From a virus, in IMG/VR virus record IMGVR_UViG_3300024980_000003, positions 1 through 64,000 of that record: a stretch of DNA of 64,000 bases. One strand, 5' to 3'. The notes below the pieces were generated by a model. The model had not been told where the DNA came from, searched no databases, and saw only the letters and a program-made list of their open reading frames with translations. Shown here in pieces: positions 1,883 through 58,589 of the stretch. Position 1 is the first letter of the stretch. Each line of letters begins with the position of its first letter. A program made the translations under genes and the position numbers.

Positions 1883-1893
1883 ATGGTGAAAAA

Positions 1894-2626: not shown

Positions 2627-2629
2627 TAT

Positions 2630-2872: not shown

Positions 2873-2923
2873 CGCCTGAATTCACCGGTCGCGCGGCGGT
2901 ACGGTGGAATGAAAATTTAAAAC
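2867..2923 (+). other. attC-like site, degenerate right end
   Basis: R'' ATATAAC (2867-2873), stem GAATTCACCG paired with CGGTGGAATG including one extra base, then a weak right box ending TTTAAAAC in place of a GTT box. Probably a decayed cassette site. Confidence 0.5.
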
Positions 2924-2937
2924 TTTTGGAGAAAATA

Positions 2938-3273
2938 ATGGACTTTCAACGCTTGAGAAACCTGTCCAATGGACGATTGCACACCGAGATTGGCCACATC
3001 TACGAAGACCTGGAGACTATTACTGGCGAGCGCGGATTGATGACTCACATGCTTCCGAGAGCGGTAAGAGCGGTTAAGCCGTGGCTTCGCGAGCATGTAG
3101 CAGACCCACGTTTTTGGGATGGGGAATACGACACCGCGCACACCGGGGAGTACACATTGCCAGAGCCTACAGCAGAAGACAGGTTGGCGATGTTTGAGCG
3201 ATATAAGGCGCAACCGAACCCGCTGGAAGGTAAGGACGTGATTGCGGTGCAGGTGATGCACCTAACGCAATAA
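2938..3273 (+). CDS. DUF7736-like hypothetical phage protein
   Basis: 111 residues. The N-terminal half (LRNLSNGRLHTEIGHIYEDL, then GLMTHMLPRAVRAVKPWL) resembles a short domain seen in many prophage accessory proteins; its role is not known to me. GGAG precedes the ATG by 8 bases. The coding sequence continues into the next attC-like site and stops there (TAA 3271-3273). Confidence 0.68.
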   Translation: MDFQRLRNLSNGRLHTEIGHIYEDLETITGERGLMTHMLPRAVRAVKPWLREHVADPRFWDGEYDTAHTGEYTLPEPTAEDRLAMFERYKAQPNPLEGKDVIAVQVMHLTQ

Positions 3274-3347
3274 TAACGGGACGCGGCGACGCGAATGAAA
3301 TTTAACGAAAGATTAGGGCCGCGTTCCCGTTGATTTACGGGTTAGGC
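3260..3347 (+). other. attC site, best match in the window
   Basis: 88 bp. R'' ACCTAAC (3260-3266) and R' GTTAGGC (3341-3347) fit the RYYYAAC / GTTRRRY consensus exactly. L'' TAACGGGACGCGGC pairs with L' GCCGCGTTCCCGTTGA, the right arm carrying two extra bases that would bulge out of the bottom-strand hairpin. The preceding ORF stops inside it. Its left half is repeated almost exactly at 4026-4057. Confidence 0.82.
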
Positions 3348-3368
3348 TTAATACGGGAGAATAACATA

Positions 3369-3782
3369 ATGAGTTTTACAGATAACACAACAGGCAAATT
3401 TGAGTGGGGGACGCCACAAAGATTTTTTGATGAATTACACCGAGAATTTGGGTTTACGGTTGACGTTTGCGCTAATAAGGAGCTTGCAAAATGCCAAAAA
3501 TACTACGACAAAGAAATGGACGGGCTGAAACAAGATTGGACGGGGGAGATTTGCTGGATGAACCCGCCCTATGGAGCCGCCATAGGTATGTGGCTCAAGA
3601 AAGCGGCCGAGAGCCGTGCGACTGTGGTTTGCCTTGTGCCATCGAGGACAGACAACAAGTGGTGGCACCAATGGGTAATGACGGCATCAGAGATCCGTTT
3701 CGTGAAAGGACGGCTACGGTTTCAGGGTGCAGGGGATGGAGCAAAATTTCCTTCAGCGATAGTAATTTTTAGAGGGGCATAA
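3369..3782 (+). CDS. Phage-type DNA N6-adenine methyltransferase (Dam family)
   Basis: 137 residues. It probably methylates adenine in phage or host DNA. The order fits the compact phage Dam family (PF05869): EWGTPQRFFDELHREFGFTVDVCA at the start, catalytic NPPY motif at about 58-61 (WMNPPYG), and the late RLRFQGAGDGAKFPSAIVIF block. ATG at 3369 is preceded by GGGAGAA. The TAA stop is within the R'' box of the next attC, so the gene forms a complete gene-plus-attC unit between 3341 and 3834. Confidence 0.88.
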   Translation: MSFTDNTTGKFEWGTPQRFFDELHREFGFTVDVCANKELAKCQKYYDKEMDGLKQDWTGEICWMNPPYGAAIGMWLKKAAESRATVVCLVPSRTDNKWWHQWVMTASEIRFVKGRLRFQGAGDGAKFPSAIVIFRGA

Positions 3783-7148: not shown

Positions 7149-7195
7149 GCGTATAACCTTGCGTATGATTAATATTGATGTATAATTATACGCAT
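7147..7195. promoter_or_regulatory. Divergent promoter and operator of RHH gene and tnpB
   Basis: ATGCGTATAA (7147-7156) and TTATACGCAT (7186-7195) form a perfect inverted repeat, with a third copy of the core, GCGTAT, at 7161-7166. On the plus strand TTGCGT (7159-7164) and TATAAT (7181-7186) lie 16 bases apart and form a good sigma-70 promoter for tnpB. Operator sites overlap it and both ATGs. Confidence 0.65.
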
Positions 7196-8327
7196 GATGA
7201 TACAAAAATCCTATAAATTCAAGTTCTACCCAAATGCTGCGCAAGCCGAACAGCTGCAAAAAGAATTCGGCTGTGCGCGGTGGACATGGAATCGTGGATT
7301 GATTGAACGGGATTATGCGTATTCTCAATGGGGCGTTAGCCTGGGTTCTTTGCATGACATTGGAAAGAATATAAATCAGTACAAGAAGAATGATTATCCT
7401 TGGCTAAGTGATGCAACATCGAGCGTTATTCAGCAAAAGCTAATCGACCAAGATAAAGCGTTTAATAATTTCTTTAAAGGTCGGGCAGGTTTTCCAAAGT
7501 TCAAAAAGAAAAGCCATGCTCAAAGCATCCGCTATACGCTTGACCAGCGACAGGTTTTAAACAATTACCGGTCTGGTGAATTGTTAAAGCTGCCAAAATT
7601 GGGCGAATTAAAGATTAAATGGTCACAAGTCCCAGGCGGCATACCCAAGATGGTCACGGTATCGAAGTCGGCAAGCGGATGTTATTTCGTCAGCTTCATG
7701 TGTGAGGTCGAGCAAGACTTAAAACCGATGACCGGCAAGGTGATCGGTATTGATGTTGGTATCAAGGATGTGGTCGTAACCAGTGACGGCTTTTATTCAG
7801 GCGCGCCCAGGTTTACCTATAAGTACGCACGGCAATTGAAGAAAGCGCAACGGGTTTTAAGCCGTAAGAAAAAAGGCAGTAATGGATTTAAGAAGCAACG
7901 GATTGTGGTAGCAAAGATTCACGAAAAGATTGCAAACAGTAGAAAAGATTTTTTGCACAAAGTGACAACCAAGCTTGTGTCTGAAAATGATATTTTGTTT
8001 TTGGAAGATTTAAACGTTTCCGGGATGCTCAAGAATCGTAAGCTATCAAAAGCGGTTGCGGATGTGGGCATTTTTGAACTCAATAGGCAAATCGAGTACA
8101 AATCTCAGTGGTACGGCAAGCAGGTTGTTAAAATCAGCCGTTGGGAGCCTACGACGAAGAAGTGTAGTTCATGCGGGAATATTCGCATTATGAAATTATC
8201 GCAACGTACTTATGAGTGCGAATGTGGTTTAGTAATGTGCCGCGATCTTAACGCAGCGCATAATATTAAGGCGGCGGGGAACGTCGTTATGAGTGGAGCC
8301 GTACACCAAATTGATAAAGCCGCATGA
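7194..8327 (+). CDS. tnpB: TnpB RNA-guided nuclease (IS605 family)
   Basis: 377 residues. TnpB uses an RNA made from the element's right end to cut matching DNA. The RuvC-like site appears complete: Asp in GIDVG (about 186), Glu in FLEDLNV (about 278) and Asp in CRDLNAAHN (about 355). The zinc finger is CSSC and CEC, the second pair being one residue shorter than the usual CxxC. An N-terminal OrfB_IS605 domain (SYKFKFYPNAAQ) is intact. No tnpA nearby. A divergent RHH gene may control it. Confidence 0.92.
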   Translation: MMIQKSYKFKFYPNAAQAEQLQKEFGCARWTWNRGLIERDYAYSQWGVSLGSLHDIGKNINQYKKNDYPWLSDATSSVIQQKLIDQDKAFNNFFKGRAGFPKFKKKSHAQSIRYTLDQRQVLNNYRSGELLKLPKLGELKIKWSQVPGGIPKMVTVSKSASGCYFVSFMCEVEQDLKPMTGKVIGIDVGIKDVVVTSDGFYSGAPRFTYKYARQLKKAQRVLSRKKKGSNGFKKQRIVVAKIHEKIANSRKDFLHKVTTKLVSENDILFLEDLNVSGMLKNRKLSKAVADVGIFELNRQIEYKSQWYGKQVVKISRWEPTTKKCSSCGNIRIMKLSQRTYECECGLVMCRDLNAAHNIKAAGNVVMSGAVHQIDKAA

Positions 8328-8445: not shown

Positions 8446-8500
8446 ACGGGTGGTTTTGTGTAATCTATTATGCTCCCAAAAAATACCCAGAAGAACAATC

Positions 8501-9406
8501 ATGGATAAAAATACGCTTGCCACAATCACTGGCGACATACAACCTACAGCCTGGTCTGCGTCTGCATTAAAGAAAATGCCGCTTGATGAACTGATTAAAA
8601 AATATGTGTTGGTTGAGCATACGCAATGGTACATGAAATGTATGTTGCTTTACGCTATGAGATTTATATTAAAGTCGAATCAAGAATACGGTAAGGTCTG
8701 CCAGCAATTACGCGAGGACGGCATTTGCCATGAGGATCAAGGGACGATGAACCGTTACGTAAACTCAGGGATTTATCTTGAGAAGATGAAAATATCCGAC
8801 CTTACTAAAGTCGGGTTCAAAAAACAGTTTGTCTATGACTTAGCGGCTCCAATCAATGCAGATATTTCAGAGTCCGTCACTCATGAACTTCGGCAGATAC
8901 CAATCGAAGATAGGCGCAAGCTAACAATCGAAGCAGTTCGAGAAATGATAAGAAAGGCTAAACAGAAACTCAATCCAGCACTTGAGTACGACAGCGTGGT
9001 GGCAACTATTGAAAAAATGCGTGATGACGATCCGGCGCATTATCATGAAGGTGCTATTGATCTTATTAAGCAGTATGCCGAAGAAAGCAAGCAAAATATT
9101 TCTCAGATTGAATCTGAATTGATTGATCGCGGCATAGTCGTGCCAGAACCAGCCCAAGCCCAGCAAGCGGTCTCACGCCTGATGCAGTCCATACTTGATG
9201 AAGAACCGGACACCGTCAAGCCCATGACGCGGCGCAGAGAGCTTATATTAGAATTGTCTAATATGGATAATGGCGCCGTATCGGATGATGATATTCTGGA
9301 AGATTACGCACTACTGGACAAGAGCTATCGGCGCACGTTGTTGAAGCTGGCAGAGCTGCATAATAATAGAAAAAACATCATTCAAGATGCTATCTATAAG
9401 AAATGA
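8501..9406 (+). CDS. Hypothetical protein, DNA-binding or regulatory style
   Basis: 301 residues, soluble, helix-rich and charged. The N-terminal part (DELIKKYVLVEHTQWYMKC, then REDGICHEDQGTMNRYVNSG) could be helical recognition modules, and the C-terminus (ILEDYALLDKSYRRTLLKLAELH) is a likely coiled region. ATG 8501 is used; it lacks a strong ribosome site. It lies between a tnpB element and the structured RNA region and could be cargo. I recognise no family. Confidence 0.6.
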   Translation: MDKNTLATITGDIQPTAWSASALKKMPLDELIKKYVLVEHTQWYMKCMLLYAMRFILKSNQEYGKVCQQLREDGICHEDQGTMNRYVNSGIYLEKMKISDLTKVGFKKQFVYDLAAPINADISESVTHELRQIPIEDRRKLTIEAVREMIRKAKQKLNPALEYDSVVATIEKMRDDDPAHYHEGAIDLIKQYAEESKQNISQIESELIDRGIVVPEPAQAQQAVSRLMQSILDEEPDTVKPMTRRRELILELSNMDNGAVSDDDILEDYALLDKSYRRTLLKLAELHNNRKNIIQDAIYKK

Positions 9407-9423
9407 TGTGTTATAATTACCAC

Positions 9424-9587
9424 CTGTGCAGCGGCGTGGAAGTTACTGGGAATGCTCGGTGACAACGTAGACACGCAGGTTGGGCTGGGGAAACCGTAAG
9501 TGAAAGGCTTACGCGATTGCCGATGGTAAGACGATACACGCCAGCCGACAAATCGGATAGTCGAGAGTAACGTATCGACCTGCACAG
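9424..9587 (+). ncRNA. Structured RNA region, 5' domain
   Basis: CTGTGCAG (9424-9431) pairs with CTGCACAG (9580-9587), closing a domain with inner hairpins such as GTAAG/CTTAC and CCGA/TCGG. No convincing ORF covers 9407-10100. Together with two tRNA-like elements downstream and a terminator at 10041-10072 it suggests a single transcript of about 640 nt. Confidence 0.55.
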
Positions 9588-9604
9588 TTTCATTCTTATG
9601 AGTG

Positions 9605-9722
9605 CCAACAAAAGATACTTTCAATACTCAAACTTCGCTATCAACATTGAGTGGTAGGGAATCACAAAGCTCCTAACTTAGTGGGAGTCTTGGGTAATAG
9701 ACTAAGTGGTATCTTTTGTTGG
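9605..9722 (+). ncRNA. Helical domain competing with tRNA-like acceptor 1
   Basis: CCAACAAAAGATAC (9605-9618) is perfectly complementary over 14 bp to 9709-9722. The last five bases of the right strand (GTTGG) are also the start of the tRNA-like acceptor at 9718, so the two foldings exclude each other. Confidence 0.58.
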
Positions 9723-9844
9723 TGAAATGCGTAGTTGCGATACGCTAGATTTTAAGTTGACTTTGAGACAACGCTAAGAGACTCACTGTCGTAAAGATTC
9801 TTGATATTGAACAAAAAAAGCAGGGATCGCATCCTGTCACCAAC
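9718..9844 (+). ncRNA. tRNA-like element 1
   Basis: Seven-bp acceptor GTTGGTG (9718-9724) with CACCAAC (9838-9844), a D-arm-like hairpin GCGTA/TACGC, and a T-arm-like hairpin GCAGG/TCCTG with loop GATCGCA. The middle is much longer than in a tRNA and no clear anticodon arm is seen. No CCA follows. Not expected to be an ordinary tRNA. Confidence 0.55.
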
Positions 9845-9849: not shown

Positions 9850-9927
9850 ACACGCATGGCGATTGAGTACCGATAACAAGCCCTATCATGGAAATGTTAT
9901 GAAACGTCATACAGTCGCCAGCCGTGT
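9850..9927 (+). ncRNA. Helical domain preceding tRNA-like element 2
   Basis: ACACGCATGGCGA (9850-9862) pairs with TCGCCAGCCGTGT (9915-9927) at 11 of 13 positions. As in the module before it, the right strand runs into the GTTGGTG of the next tRNA-like element, overlapping it by two bases. Confidence 0.5.
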
Positions 9928-10027
9928 TGGTGTAATGCGTAGGCGAGACGCAATGAGTGTAGTCGTGATGCATGTAAATGCTCCAGCTTTAATAGCGACA
10001 ATGCCGGGATCGCATCCGGCCACCAAC
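9926..10027 (+). ncRNA. tRNA-like element 2
   Basis: Acceptor GTTGGTG (9926-9932) with CACCAAC (10021-10027), D-arm-like TGCG/CGCA hairpin, T-arm-like GCCGG/CCGGC hairpin and a middle with nested GTCG/CGAC and GCAT/ATGC pairs. Its T-arm loop shares GGGATCGCATCC with element 1, so the two are related copies. Confidence 0.58.
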
Positions 10028-10934: not shown

Positions 10935-12194
10935 ATGACAAAAACGATACGAAAAGCCTTTAAATTTAGGTTAAAAATTACACCTGAAACCGATGAAAAA
11001 TTAAATAATTTCGTTGGTGGATGTCGCTTTGTCTGGAACAAGTCGTTGGCTCTGAATCTGGATAGATTAAACAACAAAGAGCCTATTTTGTGGTATCAGG
11101 AGCTTAATTTTTGGGCAACAATTTGGAAGCAGTCTAATGAATACGGTTTTCTAAGCACTGTTCCTTCTCAGGCACTACAGCAAAAACTAAAAGACCTGGA
11201 TAAAGCGTTCAGTGATTGCTTTGATAAGAATCAGCCATTAAAGCGTTGCCCTGTATTCAAGAAAAAAGGACTATCCGATAGCATACGATTCCCTCAAGGC
11301 TTTAAGATCGATCAAGAAAATAGTCAGATTTTCCTGCCCAAAATAGGCTTTGTGAAATATCGCAATAGCCGCAAGGTAATTGTAGAGCCTAAGAATATCA
11401 CTGTAAGCCGCAAAGGTAAGCACTGGTACGCTTCTATTCAGGTTGAGTACGACAAAATAGATATGCCTCATAAATCAACGTCAATCGTTGGTATTGATAT
11501 GGGCGTTAAGCAGTTCTCTACTCTATCTGACGGCACTATATACCAGCCATTAAATAGTTTTAAAGGTAAAGCTGAAAAGTTAGCCAAGCTTCAACGAAAG
11601 CTAAAAAACAAAAAGAAATTCTCAAGTAATTGGAAAAAAGTAAAAACAAAAATAACAAAGTGCCATGAAGAAATAGCCAACGCTCGAAAAGATTACCTTC
11701 ACAAAGTATCAACTGAAATCTGCGAAAACCAAGCCGTGATAGTCGTTGAAGATTTGAAGGTAAAGAATATGAGCAAGTCGGCAAAAGGCAACCATGAAAA
11801 GCATGGAAAAAACGTTGCTCAAAAATCAGGATTGAACAAGTCAATTCTCGATCAAGGGTGGGGCATGTTTTTTCAAATGCTGGACTATAAGCAAGCCTGG
11901 AATGGTGGCATGGTTCTCAAAGTGCCTGCGCACCATACAAGTCAAACTTGCCCATGTTGCCAGCATGTAGCCAAAGAAAACAGACTCACACAAGCTGACT
12001 TTGTTTGTGTCGATTGCGGCTACAGCAATAACGCCGATATAGTTGGAGCATTGAATGTATTAAGCCGGGGACACCGGCAGTTAGCCTGCCTAGCGAGTGG
12101 TGAAGTAATACCACCGGCAACAGGAACCAGTGGTAAGCGGCGACGCAAGATCACTTCTGAGAAATCAGGAATCACCATTCCTTTAGGGCGGTGA
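10935..12194 (+). CDS. tnpB: TnpB RNA-guided nuclease, second and unrelated copy
   Basis: 419 residues. Domain order is N-terminal OrfB_IS605 (KAFKFRLKITPE), RuvC-like core and C-terminal zinc finger. Catalytic residues are Asp in GIDMGVKQF, Glu in VVEDLKV and Asp in NNADIVGALNVL; zinc Cys are CPCC and CVDC. It differs strongly from the tnpB at 7194, so the two came from separate insertions. The basic tail after the finger (GKRRRKITSEKSG) is encoded by DNA that also forms the 3' guide-RNA scaffold. No tnpA is present. Confidence 0.9.
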   Translation: MTKTIRKAFKFRLKITPETDEKLNNFVGGCRFVWNKSLALNLDRLNNKEPILWYQELNFWATIWKQSNEYGFLSTVPSQALQQKLKDLDKAFSDCFDKNQPLKRCPVFKKKGLSDSIRFPQGFKIDQENSQIFLPKIGFVKYRNSRKVIVEPKNITVSRKGKHWYASIQVEYDKIDMPHKSTSIVGIDMGVKQFSTLSDGTIYQPLNSFKGKAEKLAKLQRKLKNKKKFSSNWKKVKTKITKCHEEIANARKDYLHKVSTEICENQAVIVVEDLKVKNMSKSAKGNHEKHGKNVAQKSGLNKSILDQGWGMFFQMLDYKQAWNGGMVLKVPAHHTSQTCPCCQHVAKENRLTQADFVCVDCGYSNNADIVGALNVLSRGHRQLACLASGEVIPPATGTSGKRRRKITSEKSGITIPLGR

Positions 12195-12244: not shown

Positions 12245-12415
12245 ATGACCAATAAAACAGATGGCAACTATTTCCTTACCATGCTAATGGTTTGCGTAGC
12301 TCCACCTGTTCTGTTCCTGCAATGGCTATTCCTTGGTGATAAGTTCGGTCATGGAAAAGCCATTGTCTTTGTGGTGACTATGTTCCTGTTCGGGTCGGCC
12401 TTCTTCTTTAATTAA
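12245..12415 (+). CDS. Small membrane protein
   Basis: 56 residues with two hydrophobic segments (TMLMVCVAPPVLFLQWLFL and AIVFVVTMFLFGSAFFF) joined by GDKFGHGK, typical of small phage-borne inner-membrane proteins. AAGGA lies 9 bases before the ATG. Its last codons overlap the end of the convergent giant gene. Confidence 0.62.
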   Translation: MTNKTDGNYFLTMLMVCVAPPVLFLQWLFLGDKFGHGKAIVFVVTMFLFGSAFFFN

Positions 12416-15400
12416 TTGAAGTAAGGGTGCGACCTTTCCACCGCCATGCGTGACACTTCGTTAGATCGTTGCATCAGTGCGTTAATCCTATCGCGCTTAT
12501 CAGTAGCACTTAGATTGCTGCGGTAAATTACATCCACCTGCGCCCTGAGTCTGCTCAACTGCTTGCCGGAAGCTTCCAGTTGACGGCGCTTGCTCAACTT
12601 GTCGGCATTATCGGTCATTAGCTCGTTGGCCTTGTCGATATTGCCTTCTTTCTTGTACGCGTTAATCGTCTTATGGATTTGATTGACTTCGTTCAGCATA
12701 TCGTAAAACTCAGTACCGTATTTGGTGTGCAGCGTGGGACGCTCCTGATAGAACGCTTTCACGACCGGCAAACTGTCAATCCTCATCGCTGGCTGATCCG
12801 GCATCCCCGATAACTGCCTAACCATCATATCCGATGCGCCCAAGGCGTACATGCCTAATGCGCCAAGATAGCCATGCAGTAAATGCTCCAGACGTTTGGG
12901 CGATGCACCTAATGCTTCCGGCAAGGACGCGCTTAACGCTCGCATGGTTTCGCTAGTGTATTCGTTATAACGTGCGCTCGGCAATTTGCCTTCGTCGGCC
13001 ATGCCTTCAATCGCCCTGCCGGTAAACATATCCTTGTTGGAGTACAGTTCGATGAACGGTTTGAATAGCTGCGGTACTGGATTGAAAGCCAAGGTATCGC
13101 TTGCGCCATGCCCCATGCGTTCGGCGTAAGTTTTCAAACTGTCTTTGCCGATCAACGCTCTCGCTGAACGCTCAGGAACAGTGCCAAAGATCAAGCCTAA
13201 CTCGAACGGTTTAGGTATCCTAAAGTGTTGATTTCCAAAGAAGAAATGCCAGTAGGTGTCTTGATCCCACGGTTCCAAAGCTTCGTAATCATCGTTATCC
13301 GAATTGAGTGCCAGCAATGCCAAAGAGAACATGGCAATCGATAAGCCTTTCGCCAGAATCATTTTCCGCGCTTCCTTGGTCTGACCTGCTTTCGCCAATC
13401 GATACAGGCCAACCAATCGGGCATTGAAGAACGGCAGCATGTCACTCATGGCCCGGATCAGCGTAAACGATCCCTGCATCGAAAAGTCCATCAGGTCTTT
13501 GGCTTCAAACAGGTATTTGGCTTTTTCTGCCCCCGCGCGTTTAGCGTTTTCAAGAATCGCTTCACGGCTGGCGTTTTCAATCGCATCGCCCACGGACCGG
13601 TACATTTCCCAATACTTCTTCGGGGTGTCGAGAATGGAATCTTTAAAGCCTTGAACGTCCTTAATGCCGCGCCTTCTCAGTGCCGCATCCATCGACTCCC
13701 TGGCCGCATCCGGGTTGCTGTAGTTGCCATAGCCGCCCTGGAATGACGCCCCGGCAAACATCATATCGACATAGCCACCTTCTTCGTTGAAAGACTTAAT
13801 CGCCCCATGAATCGAGTCAACACCGAGCTTAAAGCCTTTTTCTTCGGCAATCGTCCAGGAGTGCATGGCGTCACGGATAAAGTTTCTGGCCATGAACGTC
13901 GGGTCGGCGGTCACAGCACCGGTCAGCAAATGCTTCATGTAGCGCATTGGCTTGAAGATGCCGCCGAACGGGATTTGATTTACGGCCGTCAATGAAGTCA
14001 GCAGCATGGCATCGTTGACTTTGTAGTATTCCGACTTACCATCACGCATAACCCTAACCACATCGGGATCAGTCGGCGCTTGCATGGCCCACATCTTGGC
14101 AATACCACTCGTCAAATCAGACGGCATGGCCTCGACGATTTCTTTCGGCAAGCCCGATTCCAGCATCAGTTTTTTAACCTGCTCCTTGGGGATCAGTGCC
14201 GCCTTTAATTCAACTCTCTGGATAGCCTCGACAAAGCGCGAGCCTTCCAGATTATTCAGCGTTTTGTTCAAGGCGTCGTTCTTCATCGACGCATCGATCA
14301 AATGCGCCCAATTCTGCATCATGTTGCCGAGTGGGTCGCTCATCGGGTTATCGCCGCCTTTCAGCATTTTGATACCGGAGGTTTGGTGGGTCAGTCCACC
14401 CTTACCGCTTGGGCCTGATTTCTTGCCTTCGATCAGCCGGTAAAACGGGATATAGTCGGCGCTCTCGAACAGCTTACGCGCTTCCGCATCCACCAGTCCG
14501 GCCTCTTGCGCCAAGTCCAGCACCGAGCTATTCATGGCGGCGATGTCATCAGCCACACCTTGATAGTCGTCTTGTTCCAATTTCAGCAAGGCATCGATTT
14601 CGTCACGACTGAAATTGTTCTCTTTGCCTTCCTTAAACAATCGGTCTGCTCTGCGCCCGACCATCCAGGCAGTGAAGTTTTCCAAGTCATCCTTGACCGG
14701 CTGCAATAGCTCGGCAAACGACTTGCTGCCGTCTTTTTTCTGGATAATGCCGCCCTCCCATTTCGGCGCACCATGCAACAGCAACGCTTGCATCGTTGAG
14801 CTTGAGCCGGTTGATAGTCTTGCACTGATATAGCCTGATACCGAATGCGCCACATCGCCGAGGATTTCTTTCTCTGCGCGCTTAATGCCGATGAACTTAT
14901 CGAATATGCCCTGCTCCAGTTGCGGCTTCATTTCATCCCATTTCTGCCGGATGGCTTGAACATTAGCTTTCAGCCCGAGACTGATAATGTCGGTGATGGC
15001 TTGAGATAGCGTTTTCTTCGGGCCGAGTCCGGCCTTGCGTTTAGCTTCTTTGATAACATCGCTATCGACAGCCCTACTATACTTCACTCCGGTTTTATCG
15101 CCGCCCTTGGCTTCATAGTCATAGGCATCACCATACCAGCGTTCGGTTTTGGGACGGTTTTTATTCTTGGCGTCTTTGCTCAGTCCTACTTTGTCGCCGC
15201 CGTAGTTCTCGTAATCGTAAGCGTTGCCTTGCCATTTGTCGGCGTTTCTCGGTGCAGGAATATGATTCATTTCCTTGCCATTGAATAGCACAATCACATC
15301 ACTGTCTTGAATGTCTGCGGTGGCGCTTGGTGGCGTGGATTTGCGTTGCTCGGCGGTTAGTTCTTGTCGGGCTTGTGTGTTTCTTGACTCAACCTCTCCA

Positions 15401-18400
15401 GCTAGTCTTTTGTATTGCTCATGTGCCGTTAATGTGTTTTCTCTGGATAAGATGTTGCGCCGATCTTGCTCAAGATCAATATATTCTTGGTTCTCTGGGA
15501 ATTCACTTAACTTATCTAGCAATTCAAAATAACTTTCGGTCTGATCATTTGGCACATCATCCCAATTTAACGCTCTGCCTCTAGGCGTGTCTTTGCCATA
15601 GGTATCCTTTATTTTGATAAAGTCACGATTCTTCTTCCTGACCAGATTACCAAACTCAGGATTAGCGTCCATTAAGCCGAGTATCTTTTTATCGAGCGGC
15701 CTTCTTAGCTCATCGGTAATGTCTTTGTCTCTGAACTGGCTAGGACTTCCGCCAGTTGCAAAGCCTTCAATGCGCTGAATGCCATGCTGTATTTCATGGA
15801 GCAATACGGACATCATATTTTCTTTGCCGAAACTGCCCTCGTTCAAATGAATCAGCTTATCAGTGGCGCTGTAATTTCCTTCGGCCCCCAAGTCTTTAGT
15901 AATCAATACCCCGATTTTGCCGAGTTCTGGATACGCTTCAAACAGTTTCGGATGGTCGATAAAATCACTCAGCCTGTGCAAGCGTTTGCCATTCAGCGCC
16001 CAATCATGAAAGCTGTCGCCCCATGACGCATCGCTATCATCGATTTCAAAGCGCCACTTGCCGTCTACGCCTTTAAACCAGCCTGTTTCCTGCCGTACCG
16101 TTTCAGGATTATCTCCTGCTTCGATGCGTTGCTGTGCGCTGGATAGCTGGTAGGTGTCGGCAGTCTTGGCGTTTTGTCCGGCAAAGCTTTTGAGTATGCC
16201 GTTGCCCGTACCAGTGCCATTAACCTTTGCTCCGTATTTCGATAGCGCCGTTAAATCAGCTGGCGTGAGTGACTTGATAAATCCAAGGTCAAGGCCATTC
16301 CTCACCAAAAACGCCCGAATCGTTGCCACTAAATCGGCAAAGGTCTTTTTCAACAGGCCGGTGAAGGAGTCGGGATTCTGCGACCAGAGGGATACCATGT
16401 AAGCGCGGAATTCCGAAGCTTGATCTTTGACCGGCGTTTCTGCGGCCATTACGCGCTTGTAGGCTGCGAGTTCTATCGCGCTGCCAATACCTTTAGCGGC
16501 TCGGTCAAAACTGCGCTGTAGCTGTGCTTCAAAGCGGTCTATGGCGGCTTTGACTAGCGGGTCTTTGGATTCTGAGCGGTGAAGAAGCTCGTGACTAAGA
16601 ACGGACGACAGGTTGTTCTTGTTGAGCATATCCGAAACCAAATAAAGCTGATCTCGTTTCTCATCGTATAGGGCCTCTACGCCAGACATGTTGCTAGACT
16701 TCTTGATTTCTCCTGAATTAAAGTCTATATTTATTGCTGACGCTAATGGTGTGGCTTTAGACTTCGTGTCGAGCAAGGCATTATGACCTGCGGCTATGCC
16801 ATTAGTCGTCTTTCTATTTGAATAAAAAGTGATAATAGACTCTTTATTTCCTTTTGCCGATACAACAACTTTAAATCTAACCCCACCTGAATTAAGCGTA
16901 TAAATATGCTTTTGTCCTGCAATATCAAGTTTGCCATCACGAACTACTTTGCCTAGATCAAGAATCTCATTTGCTGTTATATAGCCTTTTTTACCGCTAA
17001 AATGATCGAGTAAGATATGCGTCTTACCAAATCTCTCATGCCCTTGTGATAAATTAACAAATTCCTTTACATGCTCAAGGTCGCTTTTTCTGATCTCTGA
17101 GCGAATTTTTGTATCAGTGATAACATCATAAATACCTTTCTGTTCTTTAGATAGACTTGATGTTGAGCCTATTTCTTTTATAAACCCATCAATTAAAGAA
17201 GCTATTTTGGCTTGCGTATATTTTGTTGGCTTAATCCTTGACTCTAACGCAATTCCACGCTCTTGCAGATGCTTGGGCAAATCCTCAACCGTTTGCACGA
17301 TATTCAAAATCCCCGCATCCACCAGCTTATTCACGCGCTTAGGCAATAGCTTCTTGATGTCGGCTACGGTGCTGCCGGTGGTGGGTTGGGATTTGCTGGC
17401 TTTAATGTCCTGTTTCCAATCAATGCCCTTTCTTTCAAGAAGTCGCCTTGCTGCCTGAGTTGCATCATTATCAGGATGTCCATTGGCCGTGGCAATCGTA
17501 GCTTCTCTGGTGGTTGGCGGCCTTATCTTTCCGTTTGCCACCTTATCTGCATATTCTTTTCGCAGTTCACCCCTACGTATTATTAGTTCGTGATCTTTCT
17601 TGGCTTGAGCTTGAACCTGTCTTCTGTGCGTATTAGGACTTTTACGGTTAGAACTCATGTGTAACGCGGCGTCGCCAATATCCTGTCTGGATGCACCATT
17701 TGACGCTAGATATTCTTCCTCTGTCATTACAGGAATATCACCCTGCTTCTCACCAGTCACCTTGGCTAGGCTTGGTTGGGATGGTTCGGAAGTAACCGCC
17801 GATGGTGCGCTTCGTTCGAGTGGCGTCAGCGGTGTTGTTTGTTCGCTTATCCTTTCTTCCCCTTCGCCCGATACATCGGATTCAGCATCGCCGCCTGTTG
17901 CTGGCGTTTCATCTCGGCCTGTATTTGCTCGTCGGTTTGGTAGTACTGTGCTGGCTTTTGGGGATTGGGTTTGGTCATTTGCTTGTTGCCTTGGTCTTGC
18001 ATATATTACTGATTGATCGTCTTTCGATGTGGCAATAACATCATTTCCACTTACCTTTAACGCTCTCGTTAAAGAAGCGAATCCAGCCGATGACAAGCCG
18101 CTAGGGAATGTTAGCTTTACAGTGCCTTCTTTATCCGGCGTGGAAATAGCGTGGATTCCGTATTCATCAAGAATCGCCTTGCCAACTTCGTGCGCTTCGA
18201 CCGATTTATCTCTAACAATTAGCCTGTTTGAGCTATAATTATCAGCAACACGGCCCTCATCGGTATTGCTTATTTTTGCAATATTGCTTGAGGGTTCTTT
18301 TTTTGTGAGCACATCAGAATCTTGTACAGAATCCGCTTGATTAAAGTCAACGCCCCTTACCCTGTCAGCGCCAAATCTGCCTCTTGCCCATCCAGTTATA

Positions 18401-21171
18401 TCTTTAATGGTATCGCGCTTTGAATTGATTTCGTTTATTTCGGATGGAGTAAAGCCTTTGCTGGCTAAATTATCGCCAGCTGCCACTTTCGGCGCATGAC
18501 CAAACCCACCCTCTACCGGCACCACATGATGCGTGGCTTCGCTGATGTTGGGATAGCCTTTGCTCTTTAAGGCAACCTCGGCTGATTTTGCCGTCTTGAA
18601 GGGTTTGTTTTGGTTGCTTAGGGTTGGTTTTAATTCCCCTTCAATGCTTTCACCCAGTCCTCCGAGTAGTCTGGATGAAGTATTTGTACGCTGCATCGCG
18701 TTTTGCGATTGTGTAGCCTCGCCATTTGCAGTCTTTGTTTTTTGTTGGGTCTTGTTTTCTTGGACATTTGCTTTAGCCGATGTTTCCGTCTTGAAGGGTT
18801 GGTTTTGGTTGCTGAGTGTGGCTACATTTGCGTTATCCGCACCTGGTGTAAGTTGTCCTTTATTTTGCTGAACTGTATTTTTCTGAACTTGTGCCGCTGG
18901 TTCTGCTCCGCTCGCCAATGCAGGATTTGATTGACGATCATTGGGAATCTGTATTTGTTCACTCGTAGGTTTAACCGTCGCTTTGTCAGATTCTGCGCTC
19001 GGCGTTTGTGTCGATATAGCTTCATTTTTTATATCCTGTTTAATCGGCGCTGCATCTTCATCGGATGGGGTGCTTAGGGTTGGTTTAGCATTACCTCTGA
19101 CTGAATCAATTACTTTCTGAGCAACGCTATTTTTGCCATGTGTGCCGTATTCATCACCAAGCACTGACTGAGAAAACACATAGGCAATATAATCATCCTT
19201 GGTCATGCCTTGCGGTATTCTTGCATCTTCACTATTAGCAAAAGATTCAATGCGTTTAATTTCGTCGCCCAGCTTTTCAACTGTTAAGTCGCCGTTAGTT
19301 AAGCGTTGAACTAACTCGGCTGTTTTTCGTGCATTTTCTCTGTGCTGCTTAACGCGATTATTGCGCTTGCTTTCATTGATTGCGCCAATAGACATGGATT
19401 CGCTATTGGAATAAGGATGGTATCTATCGTCAAAATCGACAACATTCTTATTGTCTTTGTATTTCTTATTGGCGAATTCATCAGATTTAACCGTTTCTGA
19501 TTCAGCGTGTTTTGTTAAGGCCGAGACAATGGCATCCGTTGACGCTTTTCTTTGCGCTGTTTCTTTCTCTGCGCCAGCAAACCAATCCTCATTGAATAAG
19601 TCTGTAGCGTCACCTAATTGACCAGCATTGCCGTTTCCTGCCTCGCCTGTAGCTGACACTCCATCAGCATTATCGTATTCTGTTGCGCCTCGATGATCTG
19701 CTGGGCGAATAGCATCGCTTGCTGCCAGTCCTGTTGCGTTGGGTTTTCCTGTGTTGGGTATATCGGTTGTAACATTGTTATTCGTGTTCGGTTGAGTGGT
19801 CTTGGTTGATGGCGGTTGTTGTGCTTTGCGCTGTTCGGCTAGGCGTTGGTTGAGCAGGTCTTGCGGAGTTAATTCATTGCTTGCTGCTGTAGCTTCCAGA
19901 TTATCCGCTTCGCCATTAATGCCGACGCGTCCAGCATTGCCTCGTAATTTTTCTGTTGCATCATAAATAGGGTTATTTTCCTCGGGCTCGATAGCGATAT
20001 TATATCCATCTAAACCACCTTCGCCAGTAGCCAGAGTATCAGACGGTCTAAATGGCTGTTTCTGTTCATCTGATATAGATTCACTTGCGGATATTTCTTG
20101 TTGTAGCCCTGATCGTTCCCCATTGTTTCCCCTTATGTCATCGGTTGTTGGTGTTTGAATAACAGGCGCTTTCGCGGCGGCTTTGGATAATGGGCTAGAG
20201 ACCGCATTGACACCACCACCCATTAAGCTTCCCGCTAATGAGCCTTCGACAAAGTTTCTACCCATGCCTTGCGTTACGGGCTTATCTTCGGCCAAGTTTT
20301 GCAGACCTGTTTCAGCTATCGACTGCAAGCCTTCCTCAATCGGGCCTTCTTGTATCGCGCCGCCGATAACACGTCTAGCCAGCGATTGATTCACATCGCC
20401 CATACCAGCGCTGACTCCGCCTGCCGCTATCGCATCAATATCAGCCAACGCAATATCATCTAAGCCAAATCGGTTAGCAATGCGATTGGTAATGCGATTG
20501 CTTTGATTGCCGATTAATGCGCCCGAAAAGCCTGTGCCTGCCGCTGCTAATGCCGCTATCTGTGGGTCAACGCTCTCGTCAATGTTCGCCATTGACTGGC
20601 CGGCCATGATCGCACCTTCACCGACATTACCGGCTAAGGCGGCACGTTTGGCTACTTCCGCCGCCGTTCCGGTTTTCGCTAAGGCATTAAGGCCCGTTGC
20701 AGTCCGTCCTAATGCGCCACCCGCATACATAGAGGGCAATGACTCGACAACGGTTCCCATGATAGCGCGTGGATTCGTAGCGTACGCCTTTGCAACATCC
20801 AGGGCATTCGTGTTGGGATCATCCCACACCTGATTGACATTCTGCCGCGCTTGCTGCATTGCCGGTGAATAAGCGTTATCTGCATCTTTAGCCCATTGGC
20901 TAGGCTTGAATCCAGTGGCGTTACCAATCGCATCGGTCGCCCTATCGAATGGCCGGTTAATCCCCAATAAGCTAGGCTGAATATCGGCCAGTCCTGTGAT
21001 TGCGCCGGGGATCTGCATCACGCCCTTGCCAAGGCCGACTAAGGTATCGTTGATAATCCCCTTGTTGCCTTGGCCGGATTGCCCTGAAATAGGCTTAATG
21101 TCAGACAAATCAATAGCGGCACTTTTATTGATCGGCTGAATATCCGATAAATCCATAAAATCATCTGACAT
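12412..21171 (-). CDS. Giant polyvalent virion protein (2919 residues)
   Basis: Probably packaged in the capsid and ejected into the host. It fits the large polyvalent proteins described for phages and conjugative elements, which string together effector and protective domains. Visible parts: a Gly/Ala-rich N-terminal half up to about 330; long low-complexity Gln/Ser/Thr stretches to about 1250; a nuclease-like segment ending VKFKVVV-style (FKVVVSAKGNKESIITFYSNR, residues about 1434-1455, reminiscent of Barnase-EndoU-type domains); a zincin-like SHELLH at about 1526; a second zincin-like LLHEIQH at about 1788; and a C-terminal 900 residues like domain LPD38, with a hydrophobic segment near 2610. 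Last gene of the leftward late operon. Confidence 0.8.
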   Translation of the reverse strand: MSDDFMDLSDIQPINKSAAIDLSDIKPISGQSGQGNKGIINDTLVGLGKGVMQIPGAITGLADIQPSLLGINRPFDRATDAIGNATGFKPSQWAKDADNAYSPAMQQARQNVNQVWDDPNTNALDVAKAYATNPRAIMGTVVESLPSMYAGGALGRTATGLNALAKTGTAAEVAKRAALAGNVGEGAIMAGQSMANIDESVDPQIAALAAAGTGFSGALIGNQSNRITNRIANRFGLDDIALADIDAIAAGGVSAGMGDVNQSLARRVIGGAIQEGPIEEGLQSIAETGLQNLAEDKPVTQGMGRNFVEGSLAGSLMGGGVNAVSSPLSKAAAKAPVIQTPTTDDIRGNNGERSGLQQEISASESISDEQKQPFRPSDTLATGEGGLDGYNIAIEPEENNPIYDATEKLRGNAGRVGINGEADNLEATAASNELTPQDLLNQRLAEQRKAQQPPSTKTTQPNTNNNVTTDIPNTGKPNATGLAASDAIRPADHRGATEYDNADGVSATGEAGNGNAGQLGDATDLFNEDWFAGAEKETAQRKASTDAIVSALTKHAESETVKSDEFANKKYKDNKNVVDFDDRYHPYSNSESMSIGAINESKRNNRVKQHRENARKTAELVQRLTNGDLTVEKLGDEIKRIESFANSEDARIPQGMTKDDYIAYVFSQSVLGDEYGTHGKNSVAQKVIDSVRGNAKPTLSTPSDEDAAPIKQDIKNEAISTQTPSAESDKATVKPTSEQIQIPNDRQSNPALASGAEPAAQVQKNTVQQNKGQLTPGADNANVATLSNQNQPFKTETSAKANVQENKTQQKTKTANGEATQSQNAMQRTNTSSRLLGGLGESIEGELKPTLSNQNKPFKTAKSAEVALKSKGYPNISEATHHVVPVEGGFGHAPKVAAGDNLASKGFTPSEINEINSKRDTIKDITGWARGRFGADRVRGVDFNQADSVQDSDVLTKKEPSSNIAKISNTDEGRVADNYSSNRLIVRDKSVEAHEVGKAILDEYGIHAISTPDKEGTVKLTFPSGLSSAGFASLTRALKVSGNDVIATSKDDQSVIYARPRQQANDQTQSPKASTVLPNRRANTGRDETPATGGDAESDVSGEGEERISEQTTPLTPLERSAPSAVTSEPSQPSLAKVTGEKQGDIPVMTEEEYLASNGASRQDIGDAALHMSSNRKSPNTHRRQVQAQAKKDHELIIRRGELRKEYADKVANGKIRPPTTREATIATANGHPDNDATQAARRLLERKGIDWKQDIKASKSQPTTGSTVADIKKLLPKRVNKLVDAGILNIVQTVEDLPKHLQERGIALESRIKPTKYTQAKIASLIDGFIKEIGSTSSLSKEQKGIYDVITDTKIRSEIRKSDLEHVKEFVNLSQGHERFGKTHILLDHFSGKKGYITANEILDLGKVVRDGKLDIAGQKHIYTLNSGGVRFKVVVSAKGNKESIITFYSNRKTTNGIAAGHNALLDTKSKATPLASAINIDFNSGEIKKSSNMSGVEALYDEKRDQLYLVSDMLNKNNLSSVLSHELLHRSESKDPLVKAAIDRFEAQLQRSFDRAAKGIGSAIELAAYKRVMAAETPVKDQASEFRAYMVSLWSQNPDSFTGLLKKTFADLVATIRAFLVRNGLDLGFIKSLTPADLTALSKYGAKVNGTGTGNGILKSFAGQNAKTADTYQLSSAQQRIEAGDNPETVRQETGWFKGVDGKWRFEIDDSDASWGDSFHDWALNGKRLHRLSDFIDHPKLFEAYPELGKIGVLITKDLGAEGNYSATDKLIHLNEGSFGKENMMSVLLHEIQHGIQRIEGFATGGSPSQFRDKDITDELRRPLDKKILGLMDANPEFGNLVRKKNRDFIKIKDTYGKDTPRGRALNWDDVPNDQTESYFELLDKLSEFPENQEYIDLEQDRRNILSRENTLTAHEQYKRLAGEVESRNTQARQELTAEQRKSTPPSATADIQDSDVIVLFNGKEMNHIPAPRNADKWQGNAYDYENYGGDKVGLSKDAKNKNRPKTERWYGDAYDYEAKGGDKTGVKYSRAVDSDVIKEAKRKAGLGPKKTLSQAITDIISLGLKANVQAIRQKWDEMKPQLEQGIFDKFIGIKRAEKEILGDVAHSVSGYISARLSTGSSSTMQALLLHGAPKWEGGIIQKKDGSKSFAELLQPVKDDLENFTAWMVGRRADRLFKEGKENNFSRDEIDALLKLEQDDYQGVADDIAAMNSSVLDLAQEAGLVDAEARKLFESADYIPFYRLIEGKKSGPSGKGGLTHQTSGIKMLKGGDNPMSDPLGNMMQNWAHLIDASMKNDALNKTLNNLEGSRFVEAIQRVELKAALIPKEQVKKLMLESGLPKEIVEAMPSDLTSGIAKMWAMQAPTDPDVVRVMRDGKSEYYKVNDAMLLTSLTAVNQIPFGGIFKPMRYMKHLLTGAVTADPTFMARNFIRDAMHSWTIAEEKGFKLGVDSIHGAIKSFNEEGGYVDMMFAGASFQGGYGNYSNPDAARESMDAALRRRGIKDVQGFKDSILDTPKKYWEMYRSVGDAIENASREAILENAKRAGAEKAKYLFEAKDLMDFSMQGSFTLIRAMSDMLPFFNARLVGLYRLAKAGQTKEARKMILAKGLSIAMFSLALLALNSDNDDYEALEPWDQDTYWHFFFGNQHFRIPKPFELGLIFGTVPERSARALIGKDSLKTYAERMGHGASDTLAFNPVPQLFKPFIELYSNKDMFTGRAIEGMADEGKLPSARYNEYTSETMRALSASLPEALGASPKRLEHLLHGYLGALGMYALGASDMMVRQLSGMPDQPAMRIDSLPVVKAFYQERPTLHTKYGTEFYDMLNEVNQIHKTINAYKKEGNIDKANELMTDNADKLSKRRQLEASGKQLSRLRAQVDVIYRSNLSATDKRDRINALMQRSNEVSRMAVERSHPYFN

Positions 21172-56266: not shown

Positions 56267-56464
56267 TTAATCGGTTGGATAGATTTCCTCAAACAAATCG
56301 CCGGGCCTTACGCCTTCTTTCATGGCGACTACGTTTATATGGTCAGGAGACATTGGTTTTTTACCATTAATCCAATCGGACACGGTTGCTTGAGATACAC
56401 CAATGCTCTCGGCCATTGCCTTTTGTGTGCTATATCGGCTGTAAATTTCGTGGAGTATTTTCAT
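56267..56464 (-). CDS. cro: Cro-like repressor
   Basis: 65 residues. YSTQKAMAESIGVSQATVSD then WINGKKPMSPDHINVVAMKE is a YdaS/Cro-type helix-turn-helix. It is divergent from the CI-like gene and would bind the same operators to favour lytic growth. ATG 56464 is used. Followed by a terminator. Confidence 0.82.
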   Translation of the reverse strand: MKILHEIYSRYSTQKAMAESIGVSQATVSDWINGKKPMSPDHINVVAMKEGVRPGDLFEEIYPTD

Positions 56465-56474
56465 GAGACACATT

Positions 56475-56517
56475 ATAGCCGATAGCGAAACATTAGCAAT
56501 AGTTAATAGCGAATTAA
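56475..56517. promoter_or_regulatory. Operator set between cro and cI
   Basis: ATAGCCGATAGCGAA (56475-56489) and TTAATAGCGAATTAA (56503-56517), with AGCAATAG between, are related sites. The first is the reverse complement of TTCGCTATCGGCTAT at 57821-57835, so the same repressor should bind both places. The divergent starts at 56464 and 56538 flank it. Confidence 0.72.
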
Positions 56518-56537
56518 ATTTAGCACATAATAAGCCT

Positions 56538-57263
56538 ATGAAATACCCAGATTATGCGAGAAGGTTCAGGCTGCTATGTGCCGAGTCGGAAGCACCTAAA
56601 GTACAAAAGGAACTCGCTAAATGGCTGGGATACTCTCAGGCGACCATTAGCGACTGGCTGAATGGCGAAAAACTACCGTCAATGGACACAGCTCTCAAGC
56701 TTGCTGAAAAATTTGATTGCTGCGTTGAGTATCTTTTAACGGGAAAAGGAGATAAATATAAGCCTGTTCACAAAACAAATAGCTTTCCGGTGCATAATAT
56801 CGCCTCCCATAAAACAAAAAGAGGCGATATAAACAATGTCGAGGAAATTGAATCAAAGAAAGGGAAGGTTCCGTTGATAGGCTGGACGCAAGCCGGGGCC
56901 TGGGCAGAGGCCGTTGACTTATACGAGGTAGGCGACGCAGAGGCTTGGTATGATTGTCCTGTCCCGCATGGAAAAAGAACCTTCATATTAAAAGTAATTA
57001 ATGACTCAATGACATCACCGTACCCTGGACAAAAGAGCTATCCAGAGGGGACGATGATTTTCATTGATCCCGATAAAGAGGTTGTCAATGGCAGCAAAGT
57101 GATTGCGAAAATTGTTGATAGCAACGAAGCCACCTTTAAAGTATACCGTGAAGATGCAGGGACTCGGTGGCTGTTTCCGCTGAATCCAGCCTATGATAAG
57201 ATACAAGTCGCTGACGGCATGGCTATTATCGGCGTATTGATCGGCTCATTCATGCCGGAATAA
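56538..57263 (+). CDS. cI: CI-like repressor with S24 peptidase domain
   Basis: 241 residues. It keeps the prophage silent and is inactivated by RecA-stimulated self-cleavage. N-terminal HTH (VQKELAKWLGYSQATISDWL, about 21-40). Cleavage site Ala-Gly in TQAGAW (about 122), catalytic Ser in INDSM (about 157) and the Lys in ATFKVY. ATG 56538 gives the usual length. It is transcribed away from cro; a terminator follows at 57283. Confidence 0.92.
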   Translation: MKYPDYARRFRLLCAESEAPKVQKELAKWLGYSQATISDWLNGEKLPSMDTALKLAEKFDCCVEYLLTGKGDKYKPVHKTNSFPVHNIASHKTKRGDINNVEEIESKKGKVPLIGWTQAGAWAEAVDLYEVGDAEAWYDCPVPHGKRTFILKVINDSMTSPYPGQKSYPEGTMIFIDPDKEVVNGSKVIAKIVDSNEATFKVYREDAGTRWLFPLNPAYDKIQVADGMAIIGVLIGSFMPE

Positions 57264-57282: not shown

Positions 57283-57306
57283 AGCCCGTGTAATGCGGGC
57301 TTTTTT
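57283..57306 (+). terminator. Terminator after cI
   Basis: AGCCCG/CGGGCT hairpin followed by TTTTTT (57301-57306). It overlaps the stop of the convergent HNH gene. Confidence 0.75.
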
Positions 57307-57775
57307 ATCCAATGAAAAAAAAGTCACCATAGTGTAGTTTTGCTGCATTTCTATATGCCAATGCAGCTTCTTCTTCTGTTTTAAAACTACCCAATCTTAT
57401 CTGCTTCTTATTTACATTAATTGTAGCCCTATATCGATTGCGCCTATTATCCTTGTGAACGCCTTTAAACTGTGACGTTTTTTGTTTGTGCTTAACGCAA
57501 TTGAATAAGTTTTCACTTCTTGTACACGCTCGCAAATTTTCCCTTCTATTGTCCAAGCCATTATGATTTATATGATCTACATCCAATACTGGATCGGCAT
57601 TCATTATCATTCTGTGCATTCTTATACGCTTCCATTTTCCATCTACTTTGCAGCTTGTTAGTGCGTATTTATTGTTCCCTCCAATACTTACACGCCACTT
57701 ATATTCCGATAAAAAATCAAAGTCAGCATCGTCTACTAATGCCACAAACCCACCATTAAGCTTAATCTCTCTCAC
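57305..57775 (-). CDS. HNH-AP2 homing endonuclease
   Basis: 156 residues. REIKLNGGFVALVDDADFDF starts the family, HNH_3 block MHRMIMNADPVLDVDHINHN then GLDNRRENLRACTRSENLFN, and a C-terminal AP2-like strand domain (SQFKGVHKDNRRNRYRATIN, RLGSFKTEEEAALAYRNAA). Free-standing homing nucleases of this kind insert between phage genes. GTG 57775 is used as GAGAAG lies before it; reading from upstream ATGs would enter the operators. It separates cI from the right operator. Confidence 0.85.
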   Translation of the reverse strand: MREIKLNGGFVALVDDADFDFLSEYKWRVSIGGNNKYALTSCKVDGKWKRIRMHRMIMNADPVLDVDHINHNGLDNRRENLRACTRSENLFNCVKHKQKTSQFKGVHKDNRRNRYRATINVNKKQIRLGSFKTEEEAALAYRNAAKLHYGDFFFIG

Positions 57776-57820
57776 AATTAACTTCTCTAATAACAATAAA
57801 AAAGTCATTGTAACAAATAA

Positions 57821-57863
57821 TTCGCTATCGGCTATTGACATTTGTTCGCTATCAGCGATAATA
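57821..57863. promoter_or_regulatory. Right operator set
   Basis: TTCGCTATCGGCTAT (57821-57835) and TTCGCTATCAGCGATAA (57845-57861) are 24 bp apart; the second is almost a perfect palindrome. The first recurs inverted at 56475. They likely carry the promoter of the rightward early operon. Confidence 0.72.
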
Positions 57864-57879
57864 ACCCAGACTTAAACGA

Positions 57880-58345
57880 AACACTATTTCCAAAGCCCTT
57901 CCAGCCGAAGGCCCGGTATCAATCCCGGCGAATGATTGGCAGCCCCCTGAAATACGGGACGTAGCGTGCAGAAAATAGCTCTTTTAAGACGCATTCACCG
58001 AGTGCTTCTCAAAAGATCAACCGATTTCAGCCTCCCCTGGAACTCAACCCGGTAGCAATGCCGGGTCTTTTTCGGATGGAAGCAATAAGAACACTTGCGG
58101 AACTATGTAGTGATAAACCCGCAAATGATGACCGCCTGAAAGAAGGCAACTGATACCTAGCCAGTCGTCCAAAGGAGACTGAATAAACGGCCTTTGCAGT
58201 TTGCTTAACTTAACCGTGACAGCATGAAATAAAAGCTAGGCATGACTAAGCCATTCCGGGTAAGTGAGTGGCAACAAGGATTGATACTAAAAGTGACAAC
58301 GGTTCATGCGTCCGGAGCACAGACGTTGTTTAAATTAGCGTCAAT
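57880..58345 (+). ncRNA. Long structured leader of the early right operon
   Basis: No ORF with good support lies from 57864 to 58589. Hairpins include CCGG/CCGG at 57912, a terminator-like stem at 58047, GCCT/AGGC at 58133 and CAGTC/GACTG near 58162-58181. The 3' part has CAACAAGGATTGA (58272-58284) perfectly complementary to 58341-58353, the latter running into a tRNA-like element. Arrangement is like the region at 9424-10027. Confidence 0.5.
58047..58072 (+). terminator. Terminator-like hairpin inside the leader
   Basis: ACCCGG (58047-58052) pairs with CCGGGT (58061-58066), followed by CTTTTTC. It would stop most transcripts before the recombination genes unless antitermination occurs. Confidence 0.62.
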
Positions 58346-58349
58346 CCTT

Positions 58350-58455
58350 GTTGGTGTAGCTCAGTGGTTAGAGCTGGGGGCGGCATGCCTAGTAGTCAAT
58401 TAACTAGCGAACCCTGTAAGTAGACTCAGCGCCGGTTCAAGTCCGGCCACCAACA
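58350..58455 (+). ncRNA. tRNA-like element 3
   Basis: Acceptor GTTGGTG (58350-58356) with CACCAAC (58448-58454), a canonical D-arm (GCTCAGTGGTTAGAGC) and a canonical T-arm (GCCGGTTCAAGTCCGGC). Between them, instead of a 17-base anticodon arm, are 55 bases with a GGCATGCC palindrome and a CTAGT/ACTAG hairpin with loop AGTCAATTA. No CCA is encoded. It is closer to a true tRNA than the elements at 9.7-10.0 kb. Confidence 0.62.
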
Positions 58456-58589
58456 CTAATATGCCCAATCTTATCTGTTGCCGCACGGCTTGAAACATGC
58501 ACGAAACAGAAAGCCCATGAGAATTGGGCAATCAATAACGCATAAATTAACAAACCAGTAGTTTTGCTGGTCTTGAGAGCGAGAAAATT

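Follow-up and report, generated by a model that had tools for sequence, protein, structure and literature searches.

Comparative sequence analysis indicated that the leader of the early right operon in this phage ends in a member of a widespread and mostly unannotated family of phage RNAs, predicted to combine a long hairpin (B) with a tRNA-like element (A) downstream of it. We consider it probable, at roughly 0.6, that this B-A unit represents an accessory phage gene for a stable, trans-acting tRNA-like RNA, rather than a device for cis control of read-through. The window, that is, the whole stretch of 64,000 nucleotides analysed, comes from a virus record of 64,014 bases and, besides genes for integrase, repressor and HNH endonuclease, carries an early operon encoding a RecT/Bet-like annealing protein and a RecE-like exonuclease.

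The B hairpin and the tRNA-like element A in the early leader

The non-coding leader extends over ~720 bases, from a promoter-like site at 57835-57862 to the first operon ORF at 58590, in accordance with the ~700-nt leader that a sequence-only reading of this DNA had placed before the recombination genes; each further point of that description was likewise located where it had been placed. The promoter-like site (+ strand), TTGACA-16-GATAAT, is PR-like and matches the sigma-70 consensus at 11 of 12 positions, and on this consensus match it is the putative leader start. Direct repeats, TTCGCTATCGGCTAT and TTCGCTATCAGCGAT, were found by repeat search to flank the -35 box (57821-57859, + strand) and are probable operators of the repressor, whose gene (PHROG transcriptional repressor) lies at 56463-57263. 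The HNH endonuclease gene (57305-57841, - strand), likely a homing insertion, is situated between the repressor gene and the rightward promoter. Downstream of the promoter and upstream of B and A, an intrinsic-terminator-like hairpin, ACCCGGTAGCAATGCCGGGT (58047-58066), is followed by CTTTTT, the whole occupying 58047-58071 on the + strand, as had been described. The complete leader transcript (57869-58460) folded with a z of -3.09, and a search by folding for a put-like antiterminator upstream of the terminator gave a z of -1.57 and nothing definite. Ten bases in the same upstream part, GTATCAATCC (57916-57925), can pair without mismatch with 58278-58287 in the 5′ strand of the B helix, a match that could be chance or a competing pairing.

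The B hairpin (58272-58353, + strand) is built on a 13-bp basal helix, formed by CAACAAGGATTGA (58272-58284) and TCAATCCTTGTTG (58341-58353), which closes a longer hairpin whose two arms, 58272-58301 and 58324-58353, show 77% complementarity. Folded alone, B gave -35.5 kcal/mol and a z of -5.62, and none of 200 shuffles was equally stable. The right strand of the helix enters the GTTGGTG of A, as the sequence-only reading had proposed, so that GTTG (58350-58353) serves both as the last four bases of B and as the first four of A; its two possible partners, the CAAC starting B and the CAAC ending A, are mutually exclusive. This overlap, in which the right strand of a long hairpin also supplies the first four acceptor bases, is the mark of the whole family, and the window unit shares this architecture with its relatives.

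Motif analysis, Rfam and a descriptor scan all placed the tRNA-like element A at 58350-58454 on the + strand. It comprises a 7-bp acceptor GTTGGTG/CACCAAC, a D arm GCTC-AGTGGTTA-GAGC and a T arm GCCGG-TTCAAGT-CCGGC, with 56 bases between the D and T arms (58375-58430), confirming the canonical arms and oversized middle reported earlier; A58455 occupies the discriminator position, and no CCA is encoded. The Rfam tRNA model RF00005 scored A at 46.7 bits (gathering score 29; E 8e-07 over the whole window), and this was the sole Rfam match in the 64 kb. A descriptor requiring an acceptor of 7, a D stem of 4, a T stem of 5 and either a kissing or a canonical T loop, run on both strands of the window, matched at exactly three places (9718-9844, 9926-10027 and 58350-58454), all with GTTGGTG/CACCAAC, compared with 0-2 matches in each of six shuffled windows; the earlier count of A as the third tRNA-like element is thereby upheld. 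A folded alone was not unusually stable (z -1.32 against shuffles); its support therefore comes from the tRNA model and from comparison.

In place of the anticodon arm, A carries a stem-loop, CTAGT-AGTCAATTA-ACTAG (58389-58407, + strand). The only clear relative found of this A subtype, on contig L523, has TCATC-AGTCAATTTA-GATGA at the corresponding place; between these two sequences, the only ones available for the stem-loop, four of the five pairs are changed on both sides and the loop is kept. L523 retains the loop AGTCAATT(T)A at the end of a 5-bp stem, as well as CCTGTRAGTAGACTYAGCGC downstream. Within the window element, AGTC (58394-58397) could pair with GACT (58423-58426).

These features bear on the explanation of A as an ordinary tRNA with an intron, or as a decayed tRNA gene, which we regard as highly improbable. 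It agrees with the Rfam tRNA score and with ARAGORN, which called 'Ala AGC' with a 22-base intron when introns were allowed; moreover, an ordinary tRNA in homologous phages, which the sequence-only reading had taken as telling against it, has a weak counterpart in one array (L153), where an element of near-tRNA length with the same acceptor stands behind the same B helix. Nevertheless, ARAGORN in its default mode reported no tRNA, A has U3-A70 and no G3-U70 for AlaRS, and instead of a 5-bp anticodon stem with a 7-nt loop and a readable anticodon there is a 9-nt loop, conserved in L523 with the four compensatory pairs. Decay of a tRNA gene is opposed by the intact acceptor, D and T stems, which covary in the family. 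The window RNA is no ordinary tRNA, and no recognised Rfam RNA beyond the tRNA model.

The left array of the window repeats this organisation on the + strand, and the helix running into GTTGGTG that had been noted there was recovered at 9605-9724 (z -5.57). Its B hairpin (9605-9721), with the basal helix CCAACAAAAGATAC/GTATCTTTTGTTGG, is followed by a first A element of the kissing-loop type (9718-9844; TGCGAT with ATCGCA), a second B element, CACGCATGGCGATTG...CAGTCGCCAGCCGTG (9855-9917), in a form common in other GTTGGTG-type arrays, and a second kissing-loop A element (9926-10027; GCGA with TCGC), both A elements being assigned by alignment and descriptor scan. A further stretch at 9421-9590 (+ strand), TGTGCAG...CTGCACA with GTCGA/TCGAC beside the 3′ strand, is probably a degenerate tRNA-like element starting the array. 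Two IS605-type TnpB genes (OrfB_IS605, Cas12f1-like TNB domain; 7194-8327 and 10935-12194, + strand) flank the array, and directly upstream of it lies a 318-aa ORF (8450-9406, + strand) with no match in PHROGs or Pfam. The - strand of 12412-21171 encodes a 2919-aa large polyvalent protein, in which LPD38 and LPD23 domains were recognised and DUF6782 matched weakly.

Covariation and distribution of the B-A family

Covariation was assessed on 27 distinct kissing-type A elements, aligned over the D half and the T half with the middle removed. The acceptor, D stem, T stem and D-loop/T-loop helix were paired in 99.3% of cells, versus 91% in shuffles, and double-sided changes occurred in 42 cells, versus 8.9 in shuffles; slid controls of the alignment fell to 27-56% paired. 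Compensatory change was present in 10 of the 22 pairs, spread over the acceptor, the D stem, the T stem and the kissing helix, the last of which appears as GCTGAT/ATCAGC, ACTGAT/ATCAGT, GATGAT/ATCATC and GGTGAT/ATCACC, and as TGCGAT/ATCGCA in the window's 9718 element. By this comparative evidence, a predicted 6-bp D-loop/T-loop kissing helix replaces the tRNA elbow in most relatives, while the 58350 copy, of the other subtype, keeps the canonical elbow with a canonical D loop and T loop. It is the aligned set of 27 that settles the kissing: a permutation test on the GATGCG subset alone was uninformative, as its loops hardly vary, and the descriptor set beyond the main loop type was too noisy for the purpose.

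Relatives were sought in viral contigs with DNA patterns for the T-arm/acceptor end or the D-arm end; most matches of the first pattern search were protein-coding coincidences and were dropped, and contig L525 was set aside, in which a 22-base motif is shared and the element is absent. The recurrent arrangement is [B] GTTGGTG-D arm-variable middle-T arm-CACCAAC, often in tandem arrays, and it was found at about 170 unique places, mostly unannotated, in viral contigs, P1-like phages, PY54, EPP-1 and E. coli lambdoid prophages. Pattern matches at permissive cut-offs extended to 217 phage records and 302 plasmid records, mostly through a ~30-nt core. Among complete E. coli genomes, 198 of 5426 (~4%) carry the unit, none of them annotated among the matches listed, and the annotated records of P1-like phages, EPP-1, PY54, Bas79, STGO-35-1 and ep3 have no RNA feature over it. 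A literature search, with most subscription papers outside it, brought up neither a description of the B-A family nor one of a P1-like phage with a tmRNA-type tag. The B edges are conserved as CACGCATG...AGCCGT in other GTTGGTG-type phages, as in the window's 9855-9917, and in enterobacterial phages the acceptor is GTTGTGRTG/CAYCACAAC. Of 174 unique elements, 44 have a helix of 13 bp or more that stops precisely at GTTG. These helices are often unrelated in sequence, and left strands such as CAACAAAAATAGCGG, CAACAAGATAGTCCG and CAACACAGAGCCGG are otherwise entirely different. For comparison, the best of 20 shuffles attained 13 bp for 51 of the 174 elements, and a swap control gave 92 versus 37 of 174, a weakly informative difference contaminated by shared B sequences. 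The shared GTTG is a general property of the B-A family, consistent with a folding switch or with ordered co-transcriptional folding.

The genomic surroundings of the unit vary widely and include both early and late leaders. Several inspected arrays adjoin terminase genes, just upstream of apparent small-subunit genes as read from translated flanks; in an E. coli lambdoid prophage the unit lies between antiterminator Q and holin, in P1-like phages between dam and an SPFH gene and also beside tRNA genes, and in Edwardsiella phage EPP-1 upstream of rdgC. The units of Bas79 and STGO-35-1 oppose the direction of the flanking structural genes, and that of STGO-35-1 stands apart behind a tRNA-Met gene, with a promoter-like site of its own (TTGACA-17-TAGATT) and its own terminator-like hairpin. 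A P1-like plasmid (NC_017653.1) has a ~2-kb non-coding region (1592-3566) with a tmRNA-type tag, two tRNA genes and several B-A units, in which ARAGORN calls the tRNAs only and the PLSDB gene table lists nothing. Direct DNA homology of the window's leader was absent from phage records and confined to a near-identical contig (L002, L526); apart from that contig, the loci of SSAP relatives (80 viral and 30 genome loci) have no such RNA before the gene, and therefore offer no close synteny for testing selection on the window copy. No match was obtained by pattern or BLAST in the chromosomes of 399 Burkholderiaceae genomes, an empty result of little weight without a positive control.

A tmRNA-type tag and pseudoknot upstream of the array

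Upstream of the array, ~28 enterobacterial loci have ...TAAATGCAAACGATGA..., a frame of ten codons that encodes ANDDLMMVAA, ANDDVVLMAA, ANDEQFLAVA, ANDDQFLAVA, ANDDLMLMAA or ANDDLMLAAA, each followed by a stop. Judged by sequence, this frame has the context and the tag type of tmRNA. Directly after the tag, a predicted H-type pseudoknot has helices with 98.6% and 94.6% of cells paired and double-sided changes in seven of nine pairs; a possible first pseudoknot upstream of the tag is less well supported, its helix being 80.3% paired with no double-sided changes. The tag region also gave sub-threshold matches of 24-29 bits to RF04321. ARAGORN reported no tmRNA at these loci, whereas in the same scan it called tmRNAs of the canonical permuted form in numerous further viral contigs; many of the contigs with the tag pattern (L379-L491) carry such canonical permuted (two-piece) tmRNA genes.

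A look-alike of this tag occurs in the window at 58121-58153 (+ strand), reading GCA AAT GAT GAC CGC CTG AAA GAA GGC AAC TGA (ANDDRLKEGN*). This sequence, GCAAATGATGAC..., is placed like the enterobacterial tag, after the terminator and before B-A; the pattern GCAAAYGAYGA, expected 0.29 times per 64 kb, was found once, in the leader. A candidate pseudoknot follows at 58162-58196 (+ strand), tentatively composed of CAGTC (58162-58166)/GACTG (58177-58181) and CAAAGG (58170-58175)/CCTTTG (58191-58196), and one as good arose in 17 of 2000 segment shuffles and in 4 of 1066 60-nt window tiles. A covariance model of the enterobacterial cassette (R1) had no window match with default filters and gave 2.2 bits at the look-alike with filters off; because of this score and of the non-hydrophobic tag end, the window tag is listed as tentative. 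A PK1-like pseudoknot upstream of it was rejected, as it overlaps the resume codon and failed the scan, and ARAGORN -m detected no tmRNA in the window. The tag lies upstream of A rather than enclosed in a tRNA-like domain with G3-U70. The resemblance of the window RNA to tmRNA is a tentative one. That the leader embodies a new tmRNA-like layout, with a tag cassette 5′ of a separate tRNA-like element, through which P1-like phages, lambdoid prophages and this phage would tag or release ribosomes or block host trans-translation, is a proposal that we regard as rather doubtful.

A probable stable trans-acting RNA and its relation to known RNAs

The sequence-only reading had offered two roles for the leader, control of read-through into bet/exo and production of a stable RNA. 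The comparative contexts favour the second: the variable gene context and strand of the unit, together with its own promoter and terminator in STGO-35-1, point to a trans-acting stable RNA, and bet/exo control is unlikely to be the reason for an element so mobile among transcription units. In the proposed course of events, transcription would start early from the repressor-controlled promoter at 57835-57862 and pass the terminator at 58047, and the RNA would fold co-transcriptionally. Maturation by tRNA enzymes is suggested by the acceptor-plus-T-arm stack: RNase P would cut at 58350, the 3′ end would be trimmed behind 58454/58455, and RNase III might cleave within B. As the anticodon arm is replaced, decoding is unlikely, which leaves interaction with tRNA- or ribosome-handling factors; the persisting RNA may act in trans on this machinery; it could be a decoy, for instance, or a rescue RNA similar to tmRNA.

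Against a purely trans-acting view, the window unit lies in an operon leader and in the same direction as the genes. The unit might instead work in cis as a leader switch, in which GTTG exchanges the upstream CAAC for the downstream one and, acting together with the 58047 terminator, determines read-through into bet/exo. The terminator-like hairpin upstream in the same leader, the terminator directly upstream of the RNA at the P1-like locus and the exclusive pairing of GTTG, visible in the sequence and conserved across the family, are all compatible with such a switch. However, the sole strong terminator precedes B and A, so that transcription would already have passed it before they fold. Unrelated operons carry the unit, in both orientations and also with a terminator belonging to it, and Rfam revealed no ligand domain. 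Cis control as the explanation of the unit is therefore unlikely, and a cis role in this phage, through the terminator at 58047 and the 4-bp strand exchange, is possible.

The same maturation could also be the whole purpose of the unit. tRNAs punctuate mitochondrial transcripts as processing signals, and A, with or without B, may likewise be an RNase P/RNase III signal that frees the early mRNA, the excised RNA having no further role. The acceptor-T-arm stack recognised by RNase P, the frequent position of the units between genes and the long hairpin formed by B would suit this explanation, but the units of STGO-35-1 and Bas79 lie outside the flanking operon, and neither the kissing elbow nor the replaced anticodon arm, with its loop conserved in L523, is necessary for cleavage, which makes it decidedly improbable. 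The stable trans-acting RNA is thus our preferred reading.

Among named RNAs, GOLLD and ROOL resemble the B-A family as large structured phage RNAs (PMC12286853); neither had an Rfam match in the window or the scanned relatives at gathering cut-offs. A is like tRNA (RF00005) in its acceptor, D arm, T arm and canonical T loop TTCAAGT and in scoring above the Rfam cut-off, and differs from it in the missing anticodon arm, the 56-base middle, the lack of an encoded CCA and the B helix sharing its 5′ end, to which most relatives add the 6-bp kissing elbow. The sole member near any other named RNA is a P1-like A element, which matches positions 31-147 of the model for the prophage sRNA STnc100 (RF02076), including acceptor, D arm and T arm, with 37.8 bits; this lies below the gathering score of 47, and the window elements gave no match at all. 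STnc100 and PasD have been reported to be prophage sRNAs of Salmonella and E. coli (PMC13192938, PMC12370729), and PasD shares structure with STnc100 (PMC13192938). A place in prophages near lysis genes is common to them and the B-A family, and the consulted descriptions mention no tRNA-like fold, D/T kissing or tmRNA tag.

The enterobacterial members resemble tmRNA, permuted tmRNA (RF04321) and beta_tmRNA (RF01850) in their UAAAUGCAAACGAUGA and 10-codon tag with a hydrophobic end, the stop and the covarying pseudoknot. Phage tmRNAs are known, for example that of Melnitz (PMC9004378); unlike in tmRNA, the tag here stands upstream of a complete tRNA-like element and not inside it, and the window copy is tentative, with its non-hydrophobic end. 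A covarying structured RNA spread over many phages, with inspected matches almost all unannotated, has thus largely escaped notice. Comparison suggests that this family ties a tRNA-like fold to the prophage sRNA STnc100 and also, among enterobacterial phages, to a tmRNA-type tag in a new layout.
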